DNA from: Prevotella sp.
GTDB lineage: Bacteria; Bacteroidota; Bacteroidia; Bacteroidales; Bacteroidaceae
Length of the DNA stretch: 50,600 nt
Assembly (NCBI GenBank): GCA_017847725.1
Contig: JAGAXW010000027.1
Span: 1-50,600, forward strand
Reading direction: 5' to 3'
The notes beneath the pieces are model-generated. The model had not been told where the DNA came from, did no database searches, and saw only the letters and a program-made list of their open reading frames with translations. A program made the translations under genes and the position numbers. Below are positions 25,919-31,049 of this stretch, one piece after another; position 1 is the stretch's first letter, and each line of letters opens with the position of its first letter.

Positions 25919-26815
25919 TCAGCGCCGCCGGTCGCAGAGGTACATGCCCAGCAGAATGCAGACGGTGCCAATCAGGAACCATGGAGTAATCTGCTCGTGC
26001 AGCAGCCACCAGGCAAAGACGATGGTGGTGATGGGGTTGAAATAGACCCAGTTGGTGGCGACGACGGCTCCCAACTTGCGGATAATCCAGCTCCATAGCA
26101 AGAAGCAAAGCATGGAAGCGATGACACCTAAGAACAGGAGGTTGAAGACAGTGAAAGCGTCAAAGGACAGGAAAATGGAGGGAGCAGCTTCGGCCGGGCG
26201 CCATATATAATAAGGAGCAATAGTGACCAGCCCGTAGAAGAACACCTTACGGGTGATAAAGATGGTAGAATAGCGACTGGTAGCCGCCTTCATCAGCAGT
26301 GAATACACAGCCCAGCAGAAACAGGCAGCAAAAGCCAGCAGGTCGCCTACTGGCGACAAGTGTAACACGAAATGACCGTTGAGCACGACGACAGCCATGC
26401 CCAGGCAGGCCAGCAGCGAGCCGAACAGTTGCGTCTTGCCGAAATGCTCGTTCTGCCGATATACCATCGCTATGAGCAGCATGGCAAACAGGGGGCACGA
26501 ACAGACGATGAGCGACGTGTTGGTGGCAGTGGTGTAGATCAGGGCGGCATTCTCCGTCAAGAAATACAGCGAACCGCCCGTCAGGCCCAGCGCCACCATC
26601 ATCAGCTCGTCGCGCCACGTGTCGCAGCGCGCCTTGAACGACGACCACTGCATCAGCAGTTCAAAAGCCAACAGCAGCACATAGGCAATGGCAAAGCGCA
26701 GGGTAAATATCTGCGCAGGCGACAGACCGCTCTGCAGCAGCATCTTCGTGAAGACAAACGTGCTGCCCCAAATGGCCACGACGCCAAAGGCCACCAGGTG
26801 ATAATGCCACTTCAT
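25919..26815 (-). CDS. EamA/DMT-family transporter at the end of the aromatic amino acid operon
   Basis: 298 residues with ten predicted hydrophobic segments in two EamA repeats, starting HLVAFGVVAIWGSTFVFTKM and ending IGTVCILLGMYLCDRRR. It is an inner-membrane drug/metabolite transporter. It lies five bases after tyrA and is the last gene of the pheA operon, so export of an aromatic amino acid or intermediate is a reasonable guess, but no substrate residue supports it. It converges on the M20C lid gene with a four-base gap. Confidence 0.88.
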   Translation of the reverse strand: MKWHYHLVAFGVVAIWGSTFVFTKMLLQSGLSPAQIFTLRFAIAYVLLLAFELLMQWSSFKARCDTWRDELMMVALGLTGGSLYFLTENAALIYTTATNTSLIVCSCPLFAMLLIAMVYRQNEHFGKTQLFGSLLACLGMAVVVLNGHFVLHLSPVGDLLAFAACFCWAVYSLLMKAATSRYSTIFITRKVFFYGLVTIAPYYIWRPAEAAPSIFLSFDAFTVFNLLFLGVIASMLCFLLWSWIIRKLGAVVATNWVYFNPITTIVFAWWLLHEQITPWFLIGTVCILLGMYLCDRRR

Positions 26816-26820
26816 CTTCC

Positions 26821-27615
26821 CTACCGCTTAATCTCTATGTCACGCCTGACGTTGTTACGGATTTTCGCGAGATAGGCTTTCATGCCTGCTGCATCCTTCC
26901 GGTCGATAATCTCCAGCAGTTCCTTCAGCTCGGTACGTATCTGGCTCACTTGGTCATGGGTGTACGGATTGAAGAGAATTTCCTGCAGCAGGTAGTCGTC
27001 TTCGTTGAGCACGCCCTTGGCGATGCGCATGTGGCGTTTGAAGGTGGTGCCCGGCGCATCCTGATGCTTCATGACGGCAGCAAAGACGAAGGTCGACACG
27101 AACGGTATCGACAGCGAGTAGGCCACCGTCTTGTCGTGCTCCTCGAAGGTGTACTCATAGATGTTGAGCCCCAGCCGCTGATAGAGGTCCTTGAAGAAGA
27201 TGCGCCCCATATAGTCGCCTTCGCTGATGATGATGGCGTTCTCCTCGCTCAGCTGGTTCAGATTGGCAAAGGTAGGACCGAACATGGGGTGGCTGCTGGC
27301 ATAGCGCATGCCCGTCGACTCGTAAAACTCCTTCAGCCCTGTCTTTACGCTCGAGATGTCAGTAATGATACAATCCTGGGGCAGGAAGGGCATCACCTCC
27401 TGGAAGGCGGGAATGGTGTACTTCACCGTCACGGCGTTGATGAGCAGCTCAGGCTTGAACTCGCTGATTTCTTCCAGCTGTGTGAAGCGCTGGCAGTTGT
27501 ACGTGAAGCGCATGCGCTTGGGGTCTTTCTCGAAGACGGCCACCTCATGATCAAAGCTCAGCAGGTCGATGAAGAACGAGCCCATCTTGCCTGCTCCTAA
27601 TACTAATATTTTCAT
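26821..27615 (-). CDS. tyrA: Prephenate dehydrogenase
   Basis: 264 residues. NAD-binding Rossmann motif ILVLGAGKMGSFFIDLL at the N-terminus. The TyrA active-site region is ITDISSVKTGLKEFYE followed by YASSHPMFGPTFANLNQ, with the conserved histidine. It oxidatively decarboxylates prephenate to 4-hydroxyphenylpyruvate for tyrosine. The protein has no chorismate mutase or ACT domain; the mutase is fused to the DAHP synthase in the gene just upstream. The gap to that gene contains a long hairpin. Confidence 0.9.
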   Translation of the reverse strand: MKILVLGAGKMGSFFIDLLSFDHEVAVFEKDPKRMRFTYNCQRFTQLEEISEFKPELLINAVTVKYTIPAFQEVMPFLPQDCIITDISSVKTGLKEFYESTGMRYASSHPMFGPTFANLNQLSEENAIIISEGDYMGRIFFKDLYQRLGLNIYEYTFEEHDKTVAYSLSIPFVSTFVFAAVMKHQDAPGTTFKRHMRIAKGVLNEDDYLLQEILFNPYTHDQVSQIRTELKELLEIIDRKDAAGMKAYLAKIRNNVRRDIEIKR

Positions 27616-27684: not shown

Positions 27685-28749
27685 TTATTGATTGACTATC
27701 TCTATCTGCTGACGGACGCTCTCCTCGTGGATGCTCTCGAACACCTTAGCGACAAACTCCGGCGACATGCCGGTGAGCGAGCCCTGCACGCCGCGCTTCT
27801 CCAGTATCTCGTTGTAGCGGGAGGTCTGCAGCACTGTCATGTTATGTTCCTTCTTGTAGTGGCCTATCTCGCGGCACACCTCCATGCGCTTGGCCAGCAG
27901 CTCCATCAGCGTATTGTCCAGTTCGTCAATCTGCTTGCGCATCTGCTGGATGCTCTCCGTCGTGACGTGCTCATCGCGGATGATGAGCAGCGACAGAATG
28001 TAGTCGAGCACTTCGGGCGTCACCTGTTGCTTGGCGTCGCTCCACGCCTTGTCGGGGTCGCAGTGGCTCTCCACGATAAGACCGTCGAAGCCGAGGTCCA
28101 TGGCCTGCTGGCAGAGCGGGGCAATGAGCTCTCTCCGGCCCCCGATGTGCGAAGGGTCGCAGATGATGGGCAGCTCCGGTATGCGGCGGTGCAGCTCGAT
28201 GGGTATCTGCCACATAGGGGCATTGCGGTATATCTTCTGCTCAAAACTGGAGAAACCGCGATGGATGGCGCCCAGCCGCTTGATGCCGGCCTGATTGAGG
28301 CGCTCCATGGCACCTATCCACAGCTCGAGGTCGGGATTGACGGGATTCTTGACGAACACGGGGATGTCGACGCCCCTCAGCGCATCGGCCAGGGCCTGCA
28401 TGGCAAAGGGGTTGGCCGTGGTGCGAGCTCCTATCCAGAGGATGTCCATGTCGTACTTCAGCGCCAGCGCTACGTGCTCGGGGGTGGCCACCTCTGTGGA
28501 TATCAGCATGTGGGTCTCCTCCTTCACCTGCTTCATCCAGGGCAGCGCCTTCTCGCCGTTGCCCTCAAAGCCGCCCGGCTTGGTGCGCGGCTTCCACACG
28601 CCGGCACGGAAGTTGTGGCAGCCCTTCATAGCCAGTTCGCGGGCAGTCTTCATCACTTGCTCCTCTGTCTCGGCACTGCAGGGACCTGCAATGACGAAGG
28701 GGCGTTCATTGTCACTCGGTAAGTTCAGGGGTGTTAATTCCAGTTCCAT
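27685..28749 (-). CDS. Bifunctional DAHP synthase / chorismate mutase
   Basis: 354 residues. Residues ~15-255 are a type Ibeta (KDO8P-like) DAHP synthase: FVIAGPCSAETEEQVMKTAR, FRAGVWKPRTKPGGFEG, MDILWIGARTTANPFAMQAL, VFVKNPVNPD, RLGAIHRGFSS and IICDPSHIGGRREL. Residues ~268-350 are an AroQ-type chorismate mutase (IQQMRKQIDELDNTLMELLA, KRMEVCREIGHYKKEHN). It makes the first committed shikimate-pathway intermediate and also converts chorismate to prephenate; the mutase may give allosteric control. It is three bases after the aminotransferase gene. Its product supply complements pheA and tyrA in the same operon. Confidence 0.94.
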   Translation of the reverse strand: MELELTPLNLPSDNERPFVIAGPCSAETEEQVMKTARELAMKGCHNFRAGVWKPRTKPGGFEGNGEKALPWMKQVKEETHMLISTEVATPEHVALALKYDMDILWIGARTTANPFAMQALADALRGVDIPVFVKNPVNPDLELWIGAMERLNQAGIKRLGAIHRGFSSFEQKIYRNAPMWQIPIELHRRIPELPIICDPSHIGGRRELIAPLCQQAMDLGFDGLIVESHCDPDKAWSDAKQQVTPEVLDYILSLLIIRDEHVTTESIQQMRKQIDELDNTLMELLAKRMEVCREIGHYKKEHNMTVLQTSRYNEILEKRGVQGSLTGMSPEFVAKVFESIHEESVRQQIEIVNQ

Positions 28750-28751
28750 AG

Positions 28752-29933
28752 TTATATTGCGTTTTTGATTCTTTCCAATGCCTGTTGTATCTTTTCCTCC
28801 TTGGCGCAGAGCGAGATGCGGATGTAGCGCTCGCCATTGGAGCCGAAGATGAAGCCTGGGGTGATGAACACACGGGCCTCGTGGAGCACACGCTCTGTCA
28901 GTTCCTCTGCGCCGGCATACTTCTCGGGTATCTTGCCCCAGAGGAACATGCCCACCTGCTGTGGGTCGTAGGTGCAGCCCAGCACATCCATGATTTGCTC
29001 AGCATACTTGCGGCGACTGGCGTAGCACTCGATGTTGGCCGTGCGATGCCAGTCATCGCTGTTGTTGTAGGCCTCGGCGGCAGCCAGTTGGATGCCGCGG
29101 AAGGTGCCGCTCTCGATGTTCGACTGCACCTTCAGTATCCACGAGATGAACTCGGCATTCGAGGCGCACATGCCCACACGCCAGCCCGGCATATTGTGCG
29201 ACTTGGACATCGAGTTGAACTCGACGCAGCAGTCCTTGGCACCTGCCACCTGCAGGATGCTGAGGTGCTCATCGCTCAGGATGAAGCTGTAGGGATTGTC
29301 GTTGACCACCACGATGTCGTGGTCCTGTGCAAAGCGCACGAGTCGCTCATAGGTAGCACGCTGTGCGCGCCCGCCTGTCGGCATGTTGGGATAGTTGGTC
29401 CACATCAGCCTGATGCGGCCGTTGGCTTTTTGCTCCTGGCTGTTGGCTATCTGCTCCAACTCGTCGAAGTCGGGCTGCCAGCCGTTATCCTCGCGCAGGT
29501 TGTAGTTGACGATTCGCGCTCCCAGTATCTTCGAGAGCGAGGTGTAGGTGGGATAGCCCGGATTGGGCACCAGCACCCCGTCGCCCGGATTGACAAAGGC
29601 CAGCGTCACGTGCAAGATGCCTTCCTTCGACCCTATCAGCGGCAGCAGTTCCGACTGGTCGTCGAGCGCCACGCCGTACCAGCGCTTGTAGAAGTCGGCC
29701 ATGGCGCGCCGCAACTCGGGCGTGCCCTGCGTGGGCTGATAGCCGTGGGCACTGGGGTCGTGAGCCACCTCACACAGTTTCTCAATGGTCTGCTCCGAGG
29801 GCGGCATGTCGGGGCTGCCGATGGCCAGACTAATAATGTCCTTGCCCTCGGCATTCAGCCGGGCCACCTCCTTCAGCTTGCGGCTGAAGTAGTATTCCTG
29901 TACTAAACTTAATCTTTCTGCAGGTTGTATCAT
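28752..29933 (-). CDS. PLP-dependent aminotransferase (class I/II), probably aromatic
   Basis: 393 residues. Fold type I motifs: ISLAIGSPDMPPSE, VPNPGYPTYTSL, LMWTNYPNMPTGGRA, VVVNDNPYSFILS and the PLP lysine in FNSMSKSHNMPGWRVGM. It resembles the aspartate/LL-DAP aminotransferase group. Its place between pheA and the DAHP synthase/chorismate mutase suggests it transaminates phenylpyruvate and 4-hydroxyphenylpyruvate. Residues around 160-172 (IANSQEQKANGR) look like an insertion encoded by a repeat of the type seen at 27630-27680. Six bases after pheA. Confidence 0.9.
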   Translation of the reverse strand: MIQPAERLSLVQEYYFSRKLKEVARLNAEGKDIISLAIGSPDMPPSEQTIEKLCEVAHDPSAHGYQPTQGTPELRRAMADFYKRWYGVALDDQSELLPLIGSKEGILHVTLAFVNPGDGVLVPNPGYPTYTSLSKILGARIVNYNLREDNGWQPDFDELEQIANSQEQKANGRIRLMWTNYPNMPTGGRAQRATYERLVRFAQDHDIVVVNDNPYSFILSDEHLSILQVAGAKDCCVEFNSMSKSHNMPGWRVGMCASNAEFISWILKVQSNIESGTFRGIQLAAAEAYNNSDDWHRTANIECYASRRKYAEQIMDVLGCTYDPQQVGMFLWGKIPEKYAGAEELTERVLHEARVFITPGFIFGSNGERYIRISLCAKEEKIQQALERIKNAI

Positions 29934-29939
29934 AATTTT

Positions 29940-30782
29940 TCAGTTTGTCTGTTTTCCGTCTTTGTATTCTCCTAAAATCTTGAATTCCTTGGTCAGCGGG
30001 ATAATCGCATCAATGGACTGGCGGTAGCGCGTCAGGTCGTCGTACATCAGGTCGACGTAGAACAGGTACTCCCACTCCCGCCCGATGATGGGCAGCGACT
30101 GTATCTTCGTCAGATTAATCTTGTAGAACGACAGGATGGCCAGCACATGGCTTAGCGAGCCCTCCTCGTGAGGCAGCGAGAACACGATGCTCGACTTGTT
30201 GGTCTCCGTCAGCGGGCGCAGCAGGTCGGCCTTGTTGGGATTGCTCACCACGAGGAATCGCGTGAAGTTGTGCTTGTTGTCCTCGATGTGGTCCTCCAGC
30301 ACCTTCAGCCCATAGAGCCGGGCGGCCTCTACATGGCAGATGGCGGCCCACCCTCTCTTCTGGCCCTCGCTGATCATCTTGGCACTTCCGGCCGTATCCT
30401 CAGCCTCCACATTCTTTATCTGTGCATGCTGCTCCAGAAAGTGGCGGCACTGCATCAGTGCCACGGGGTGCGAGTGTACCTCCGTGATGGTGTCCCAGTC
30501 GTCGTCGGGCAGACAGCAGATGCAGTGTGAGATGTGCAACTTGTGCTCACCGACGATGGTGGTGCCCGAGTCGCGCAGCAGCTCGTAGTTGTGTAGCAGC
30601 GAGCCGGCGATGGTGTTCTCGATAGCCACCATGCCGATGCTTGTAGGGTCCTGGCGGATACTGTCGAACACCTGCTCGAAGGTGGAGCAGCAAATAAGCT
30701 GTATCTGCTCGCCCTCGAAATAGAGGTGGGCCGCAATGTCGTGGAACGACCCCACCAGACCCTGTATTGCTATTCTCTTCAT
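29940..30782 (-). CDS. pheA: Prephenate dehydratase with ACT domain
   Basis: 280 residues. It converts prephenate to phenylpyruvate. The catalytic TRF motif is in NFTRFLVVSNP near residue 178; the N-terminal part opens IAIQGLVGSFHDIAAHLYF. The C-terminal ACT domain (SLPHEEGSLSHVLAILSFY, then NLTKIQSLPIIGREWEYLFY) is the phenylalanine-binding regulatory part, with the ESRP-like element read here as IQSLPIIG. It is the first structural gene of the operon, behind a leader peptide and attenuator. No fused chorismate mutase. Confidence 0.95.
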   Translation of the reverse strand: MKRIAIQGLVGSFHDIAAHLYFEGEQIQLICCSTFEQVFDSIRQDPTSIGMVAIENTIAGSLLHNYELLRDSGTTIVGEHKLHISHCICCLPDDDWDTITEVHSHPVALMQCRHFLEQHAQIKNVEAEDTAGSAKMISEGQKRGWAAICHVEAARLYGLKVLEDHIEDNKHNFTRFLVVSNPNKADLLRPLTETNKSSIVFSLPHEEGSLSHVLAILSFYKINLTKIQSLPIIGREWEYLFYVDLMYDDLTRYRQSIDAIIPLTKEFKILGEYKDGKQTN

Positions 30783-30792
30783 CGTATGTTCT

Positions 30793-30837
30793 TTTTATAA
30801 AATGAAATCCCGCTTTCACTTTGTCTGTGAAGCGGGA
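30793..30837 (-). terminator. Attenuator terminator hairpin in the pheA leader
   Basis: Minus strand: TCCCGCTTCAC (30837-30827), a 7-base loop, GTGAAAGCGGGA (30819-30808) with one bulged base, followed by the T-rich TTTCATTTT. The 5' arm can instead pair with CTGTGAAGCGG at 30897-30887 in the leader ORF over 11 perfect bases, so the terminator and an antiterminator exclude each other. Confidence 0.8.
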
Positions 30838-30872
30838 CCTTATTTCGTTTTTTGTTTTCTTATTCCTTATTA

Positions 30873-30950
30873 TTACATACGGCCTTCCGCTTCACAGTCT
30901 GCTGCAAAGTAAAAATAAAAGCCGTAAAAGTAAGCATTCAACATGTTCAT
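30873..30950 (-). CDS. pheA operon leader peptide, rich in Phe and Tyr
   Basis: 25 codons from ATG 30950 to TAA 30873. The middle reads YFYGFYFYF (codons at 30932-30906): eight aromatic residues in nine, four Phe (all TTT) and four Tyr. The ORF is preceded by a canonical promoter (30978-31009) and followed by the attenuator. The antiterminator strand (30897-30887) lies in its last codons. By analogy with proteobacterial phe and trp operons, a ribosome stalled on the aromatic codons would free the antiterminator, while complete translation would mask it and let the terminator form. Phe- or Tyr-tRNA supply would thus set transcription of pheA onward. Confidence 0.85.
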   Translation of the reverse strand: MNMLNAYFYGFYFYFAADCEAEGRM

Positions 30951-30977
30951 TGTCTTTTCGTTCTTGATTACCGCCTG

Positions 30978-31009
30978 CAAAAGTATAATTTTTTCCCGAA
31001 TCCCGCAAA
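30978..31009 (-). promoter_or_regulatory. Promoter of the pheA aromatic amino acid operon
   Basis: Minus strand TTTG (31006-31009), 20 bases, TACTTTTG (30978-30985). The predicted start near 30971-30973 puts the leader peptide ATG ~22 bases downstream. Confidence 0.75.
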
Positions 31010-31049
31010 CATTTTGACAGATTTTTTTGCCGCTTTCTGTCATTTTATC

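Follow-up and report, generated by a model that had tools for sequence, protein, structure and literature searches.

A close described counterpart of the element discussed here is the Phe leader of the enterobacterial pheL-pheA system, in which a leader peptide with Phe codons precedes alternative antiterminator and terminator structures located before pheA. In leaders of the ilvGMEDA type, a single leader counts the codons of several amino acids of one operon. Classical attenuation needs a ribosome that is close behind RNA polymerase. The original prediction held that such attenuation is little described in the phylum Bacteroidota; in fact, such attenuation is already on record there. First, the Bacteroid-trp leader (RF01692; PMC2864571) is a leader-peptide element from the same phylum. 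Second, a study of Flavobacterium psychrophilum reports strong clues that amino-acid operons are under leader-peptide attenuation, as well as conserved 5′ elements before pheA and hisG (PMC9723704). The pheA element is conserved in the Flavobacteriaceae and has no Rfam hit; the passages that deal with it cover one species and its family, and contain no anatomy, pairing statistics or class-wide spread. In addition, short ORFs reminiscent of attenuation leader peptides have been noted in Bacteroides thetaiotaomicron (PMC7366714), and two candidate regulatory uORFs with Phe and Tyr have been listed before shikimate genes, among five other genomes (PMC6429828). These uORFs are Phe/Tyr-rich, like the leader described below; the passages on them name no Bacteroidota carrier and give no mechanism.

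Here, we describe a pheA leader element in a 50,600 nt stretch of DNA from Prevotella sp. (contig JAGAXW010000027.1), referred to as “the window”. The whole element reads on the minus strand. It is very probably a transcription attenuator of the ribosome-mediated type, with charged tRNA-Phe and tRNA-Tyr as the signals. The promoter motif, leader, codons, exclusive pairings, terminator and conservation can be read from the sequence, and the parts are as follows.

30978..31009, minus strand: Bacteroidota-type promoter, by motif match (−33 TTTG at 31009-31006, −7 TACTTTTG at 30985-30978)
30873..30950, minus strand: leader peptide ORF of 25 codons, MNMLNAYFYGFYFYFAADCEAEGRM (ATG at 30950, stop codon at 30875-30873), with similar leaders in relatives
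30906..30932, minus strand: control codons Tyr-Phe-Tyr-Gly-Phe-Tyr-Phe-Tyr-Phe, 8/9 of them Phe or Tyr
30917..30926, minus strand: segment 1 (TACGGCTTTT), partner of 30887-30878 in the 1:2 hairpin of the MFE fold
30887..30897, minus strand: segment 2 (CTGTGAAGCGG), putative antiterminator 5′ strand within the last codons of the leader ORF, from pairing shuffles
30825..30835, minus strand: segment 3 (CCGCTTCACAG), exact complement of segment 2, common to antiterminator and terminator
30799..30837, minus strand: predicted intrinsic terminator (stem 30837-30827 / 30819-30808, U-rich tail 30807-30799)

The promoter motifs, TTTG and TACTTTTG, are spaced 20 nt apart and match the Bacteroidota consensus TTTG / TAnnTTTG quoted in PMC7366714. 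Our ORF script reported a shorter version of the leader, from the second ATG (30944). The terminator stem contains one extra A (a bulge), and its tail reads TTTCATTTT; the hairpin ends 25 nt before the pheA ATG. A generic sigma-70/terminator scan of the minus strand of the window detected neither promoter nor terminator, we think because it applies E. coli promoter rules and disallows a bulge in the stem. Searches with Rfam at gathering level gave no match on the window, on four loci of the same genome or on 12 pheA loci, and no NCBIfam model matches the leader peptide of the window or that of L014, a related locus. A strict Phe-Tyr-Phe-Tyr-Phe pattern occurs three times in the genome, one occurrence being the window leader, and a reversed control pattern occurs twice.

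Like pheL-pheA, the window element combines a leader peptide and alternative structures before pheA, although the enterobacterial model (RF01859) scores only 16.0 bits here, against a cut-off of 55. There are two further differences: the window leader mixes Phe and Tyr codons, with genes behind it that also make Tyr, and leaders of this class show no Shine-Dalgarno pattern. The Bacteroid-trp leader differs in having Trp codons and preceding trp genes, and RF01692 gives no match at the pheA leader, either at gathering level or with E up to 10 in 30750-31020. Leaders of the ilvGMEDA type share with the window the counting of more than one amino acid, for branched-chain rather than aromatic amino acids. 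The kind of attenuator is already known; the window case is most likely a class-wide instance of it in Bacteroidia, a class of gut and environmental bacteria, and limited literature searches found no description of a class-wide Phe/Tyr element.

Five genes lie behind the leader.

29940..30782, minus strand: pheA, prephenate dehydratase (NCBIfam NF008865, E 1.9e-58, 197.8 bits, below the cut-off of 219)
28752..29933, minus strand: aminotransferase, 6 nt after pheA (best NCBIfam matches LL-diaminopimelate aminotransferases, below cut-off)
27685..28749, minus strand: DAHP synthase fused to chorismate mutase (NCBIfam matches below cut-off)
26821..27615, minus strand: tyrA, prephenate dehydrogenase (NCBIfam matches below cut-off)
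25919..26815, minus strand: EamA-family transporter, probable last gene of the operon (TIGR00950 E 5.7e-23, below cut-off)

The four successive gaps between these genes are 6, 2, 69 and 5 nt, and from this spacing it is likely that a single transcript runs through all five, up to the EamA-family gene, which has a weak match to YddG (E 0.0011). The aminotransferase adjoins pheA on the same strand in 96/110 loci that have at least 300 nt of downstream sequence. Because the leaders mix both kinds of codon and the genes behind them make both Phe and Tyr, the element would act as a joint Phe/Tyr sensor.

The leader RNA (30945-30793) has a folding energy of −41.4 kcal/mol (z = −3.96). The original prediction, which comprised a promoter followed by a 25-codon ORF with eight Phe or Tyr codons in nine, a terminator hairpin at 30837-30808 before pheA, and an 11-base complementarity between 30897-30887 and the 5′ arm of the terminator, is correct in its coordinates on the minus strand. 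The hairpin folds at −17.1 kcal/mol and the complementarity is exact. The duplex of segments 2 and 3 (2:3) reaches −22.0 kcal/mol, compared with a shuffled mean of −9.4, and 0/200 shuffles pair as well; the 1:2 helix is equalled by 32/200 shuffles, which is not significant for a single locus. The predicted mutual exclusion of antiterminator and terminator is borne out by folding at two ribosome positions. With RNA free from 30897, as for a ribosome stalled at the last Phe codon, the antiterminator folds; with RNA free from 30861, as for a ribosome at the stop codon, the terminator folds. Without a ribosome, the antiterminator is the optimum as long as segment 4 has not been made, which counts against the attenuator; the optimum of the full RNA consists of the 1:2 hairpin and the terminator. 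By folding, an untranslated leader is predicted to be capable of either state, depending on timing and kinetics, and is not clearly “off”.

From this arrangement, we infer ribosome stalling, actual termination, read-through and the tRNAs that are sensed. To judge from the −7 motif, RNA polymerase would start ~20–25 nt before the leader ATG, and a ribosome would start translating the leader although no Shine-Dalgarno sequence is recognisable there. When Phe- or Tyr-tRNA is scarce, the ribosome would stall in the run of aromatic codons and leave segment 2 free to pair with segment 3; this antiterminator would block the terminator, such that transcription continues into pheA and on through the aminotransferase, DAHP synthase/chorismate mutase and tyrA genes. 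When both tRNAs are plentiful, the ribosome would run to the stop codon at 30875-30873 and cover segment 2, in which case segments 3 and 4 would form the terminator and transcription would stop near 30800.

To examine conservation, we searched for pheA, with matches in 39/60 relatives and in 176/201 genomes from the family, 80/198 from the order and 258/296 from the phylum. The 231 upstream regions analysed are a chosen set: L001-L111 come from the searches, and 120 more (L112-L231) were hand-picked from the listed matches; of the 258 genomes with a match in the phylum search, 61 are represented. We scored a leader as an ORF starting with ATG and having at least six aromatic residues in 10. 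By this measure, 192/231 regions have a leader, compared with 29/2310 shuffled copies. At least eight aromatic residues in 10 are found in 172/231 real regions, 0/2310 shuffles and 0/231 reverse strands; on the reverse strand, 4/231 regions reach six in 10 and none goes higher. Nearly all leaders (190/192) hold both Phe and Tyr codons, and 28 also hold Trp codons, counted over the whole ORF. Within the genus, the C-terminal residues of the leader peptide look conserved.

The set includes 198 loci from Bacteroidia, of which L078 and L133 lie at contig ends and were left out. Among the 196 testable loci, 188 have a leader (187 with ATG, and L174 with a GTG start), and eight have none (L036, L068, L072, L077, L168, L195, L198 and L230). 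One of the eight, L068, has the aminotransferase and DAHP synthase behind pheA, which counts against the attenuator. In L036, L072 and L077, pheA appears by eye to lie behind other coding sequence. The aminotransferase was not found downstream in these three loci, suggesting that pheA there no longer belongs to its operon; the attenuator was possibly lost alongside. Conversely, L028 and L076 have kept the leader, with no aminotransferase match downstream. A second set of 80 loci with record titles, two of them too short, was tested for the ORF alone: 69/78 loci have an ORF with at least seven aromatic residues in 10, three with a GTG start, and nine have none. Carriers of the ORF (the only feature tested here) include Bacteroides fragilis S82, B. 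xylanisolvens XB1A and a metagenome-assembled genome (MAG) named Parabacteroides distasonis, in each case before pheA.

A terminator follows the leader in 187/192 loci, and 179/192 real regions have one at −12 kcal/mol or below, compared with 0/192 shuffled regions. The five loci without a terminator (L032-L035 and L114) were left out of the pairing counts. For the remaining 187, we tested how well RNA downstream of the aromatic codons and upstream of the terminator pairs with the terminator 5′ arm: 145 loci reach p ≤ 2/200 and 165 reach p ≤ 10/200; the other 22 miss the latter threshold for 2:3, which we count against the attenuator. The 2:3 cores diverge widely in sequence, for example AGCGGGA/TCCCGCT, GGTGAGGC/GCCTCACC and GCTTTCGGGA/TCCCGAAAGC. 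In 72 loci, the mean pairing energy of segment 3 is −15.1 kcal/mol with the segment 2 region of the same locus, compared with −9.7 kcal/mol for the regions of other loci; the own pairing ranks in the best 5% in 31/72 and the best 20% in 59/72. All of these loci except L059 and L060 are from outside the window's family, and several share a family with each other. Five loci with offsets >40 (L067, L070, L073, L075 and L229) were left out of this comparison and of the 1:2 test.

A 1:2-type helix across the aromatic codons is found at p ≤ 10/200 in 122/182 loci, and in 21/34 from the genus. The original prediction had proposed covariation as a check, and in the genus the outcome was divided. For the 1:2 helix, in the form seen in L014, 14 cells of the alignment are changed on both sides and 0/500 shuffles reach this number, with the caveat that related sequences can exceed shuffles without structure; the helix scored lies upstream of the 1:2 helix predicted for the window. 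For 2:3, covariation among the 31 loci aligned is not above shuffles, the core of the helix hardly varying. Support for the 2:3 pairing comes from per-locus shuffles and from distant loci. Leader ORF and pairing both recur across the class; their absence from relatives had been named as the refuting outcome.

The position of segment 2 relative to the codons is regular. In 161 of the 165 loci with pairing at p ≤ 10/200, the start of segment 2 is 0–16 nt downstream of the last aromatic codon; the distance is 7–11 nt in 118/165. The other four (L067, L070, L073 and L075) contain two units, of which the script took the first for the leader and the second for the terminator. PMC4833913 puts the reach of a ribosome at up to 12 nt beyond a stop codon, so the offset is about the downstream reach of the ribosome. 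The leader stop codon lies before segment 2 in 29 loci, within it in 14 and after it in 122. The stop codon thus varies in position relative to segment 2, and it therefore seems that the RNA is kept, rather than the peptide reading frame, and that selection acts on the RNA.

This last point bears on the foremost alternative, namely, that the leader encodes a genuine small protein, or acts in trans as a peptide or RNA, with the terminator serving to end a short transcript and control of pheA being a side effect. There is precedent for action in trans in peTrpL of Sinorhizobium (PMC7298713), plentiful amino acids would yield a short terminated RNA, and the apparent genus-level conservation of the peptide C terminus fits a functional product. 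Across the class, however, the peptide beyond the aromatic residues differs, stops early or changes frame, whereas the complementary RNA segment stays. Moreover, the element is placed before pheA. Among the eight leaderless Bacteroidia loci, three (L036, L072 and L077) have a pheA that appears by eye to sit behind other coding sequence, with no aminotransferase match downstream. There are exceptions to the latter argument, since L028 and L076 have a leader without an aminotransferase match and L068 has the aminotransferase without a leader. We regard this alternative as very improbable, although a role in trans may exist alongside attenuation.

A second alternative, which we consider even more improbable, is that there is no intrinsic terminator, and that control is by translational attenuation, with the hairpin masking the pheA start, or by a riboswitch or T-box. 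The imperfect tail in the window (TTTCATTTT) and the five leaders without a terminator by our T-run rule would agree with this; in four of the five, L032-L035, a hairpin is present but lacks a proper T-run. Against it, a hairpin with a U-rich tail stands behind 187/192 leaders, and the terminator of the window ends well short of the pheA ATG, by 25 nt. Neither the window nor any of 12 pheA loci contains a match to an Rfam riboswitch or T-box at cut-off, and a riboswitch leaves the aromatic codons unexplained. Riboswitch, T-box and functional small protein were each considered and found less likely than an attenuator. The last alternative, a chance Phe/Tyr-rich reading of a T-rich stretch beside an unrelated terminator, has a negligible probability: the AT-richness of the region and the frequency of short ORFs speak for it, but eight aromatic residues in 10 are reached by 172 real regions and no shuffled one, and pairing and geometry recur across loci.

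Returning to the attenuator, the signals for its transcription and translation are also widespread. In 161/192 loci, the 80 nt preceding the leader ATG contain a −7 motif, compared with 6.8 loci expected from mononucleotide shuffles; the median distance from motif end to ATG is 27 nt. By contrast with the enterobacterial leader, a Shine-Dalgarno pattern (AGGAG, GGAGG or GAGGT, in a 15 nt window) was found in 0/192 leaders. The share of A upstream of the leaders is 0.59 at −3, 0.53 at −6 and 0.49–0.67 at −11 to −15, as raw values with no background. These frequencies are in line with the A-richness of Bacteroidota mRNAs described in PMC7366714.

Some loci contain two units in series, with a second leader and its own terminator between the first terminator and pheA. 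More than one Phe/Tyr-rich ORF was found in 20/231 loci, of which six (L025, L028, L059, L099, L105 and L185) were dropped by eye. The 14 that were kept come from 11 families (L061, L067, L070, L071, L073, L075, L088, L101, L189, L190, L194, L196, L199 and L229). All 28 units have a terminator. The pairing of a unit with its own region is better than that with the region of the other unit in 26/28 cases, the exceptions being L088 unit 2 and L190 unit 1, and both units reach p ≤ 10/200 in 8/14 loci; the second unit is weak in L088 and L190. A −7 motif precedes unit 1 in 9/14 serial loci and lies between the units in 0/14, and it therefore seems that polymerase must read through unit 1 to reach unit 2. 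There is a single unit in the window, and the second set, with 78 testable loci, contains no serial case. Tandem arrangements are known for T-boxes (PMC9413887). Limited literature searches found no report of serial leader-peptide attenuators, and the variant is apparently undescribed.

Outside Bacteroidia, a leader was found in 5/33 loci (L086, L087, L095, L100 and L201). Three of these leaders precede a pheA that is closer to the query than that of the leaderless family peers fetched: E 1.4e-64 versus 6.7e-46 and 3.3e-48 in family f153, 5.9e-69 versus 1.0e-50 and 2.1e-47 in f138, and 2.3e-58 versus 1.1e-47 in f135. Because the leader-bearing genes match the query better than their leaderless peers, this hints that pheA and the attenuator can travel together. 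Family f166 has two similar pheA genes (E 1.0e-65 and 5.6e-65), one with a leader (L095) and the other without (L097); the latter speaks against joint transfer.

Taken more broadly, the Phe/Tyr attenuator without a Shine-Dalgarno sequence might be ancestral and near-universal in Bacteroidia, imply close coupling of ribosome and polymerase in a phylum whose translation initiation is unusual, move between classes with pheA, and form a serial two-stage gate in several families. We consider this wider reading to be evenly poised between right and wrong, an estimate that was lowered slightly because the second set contains no serial case and L097 argues against joint transfer. The window element offers a precise, testable model for the control of Phe and Tyr synthesis in dominant gut bacteria, and would supply a missing RNA family for annotation. 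Given class-wide leaders with no Shine-Dalgarno pattern in any of 192 cases, coupling in Bacteroidota could be tested by means of a simple reporter, and loci with serial units lend themselves to studying two attenuators in combination.

Other leaders are present in the window's genome. At its trp operon, RF01692 scores 45.3 bits, just under the cut-off of 49. The same locus (L233, about 88-237 on the plus strand, G000:C2 about 40200) has a Trp leader (MMRTNNTWWWRNSRFK) with a strong hairpin, preceding a trpB-like gene (by eye) and trpE; its own pairing is weak, with 20/500 shuffles equally good. No His leader was seen in the 420 nt before hisG. Before ilvD, there is an ORF with four Ile codons that overlaps a −7 promoter motif. 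Lastly, a branched-chain leader, MKSQNLLNNLIIIRLRGVVGSDKACI, with a hairpin terminator lies before leuA (L236, 1301-1381 on the plus strand, G000:C17 about 29400), and its segment 2:3 pairing is equalled by 1/500 shuffles.
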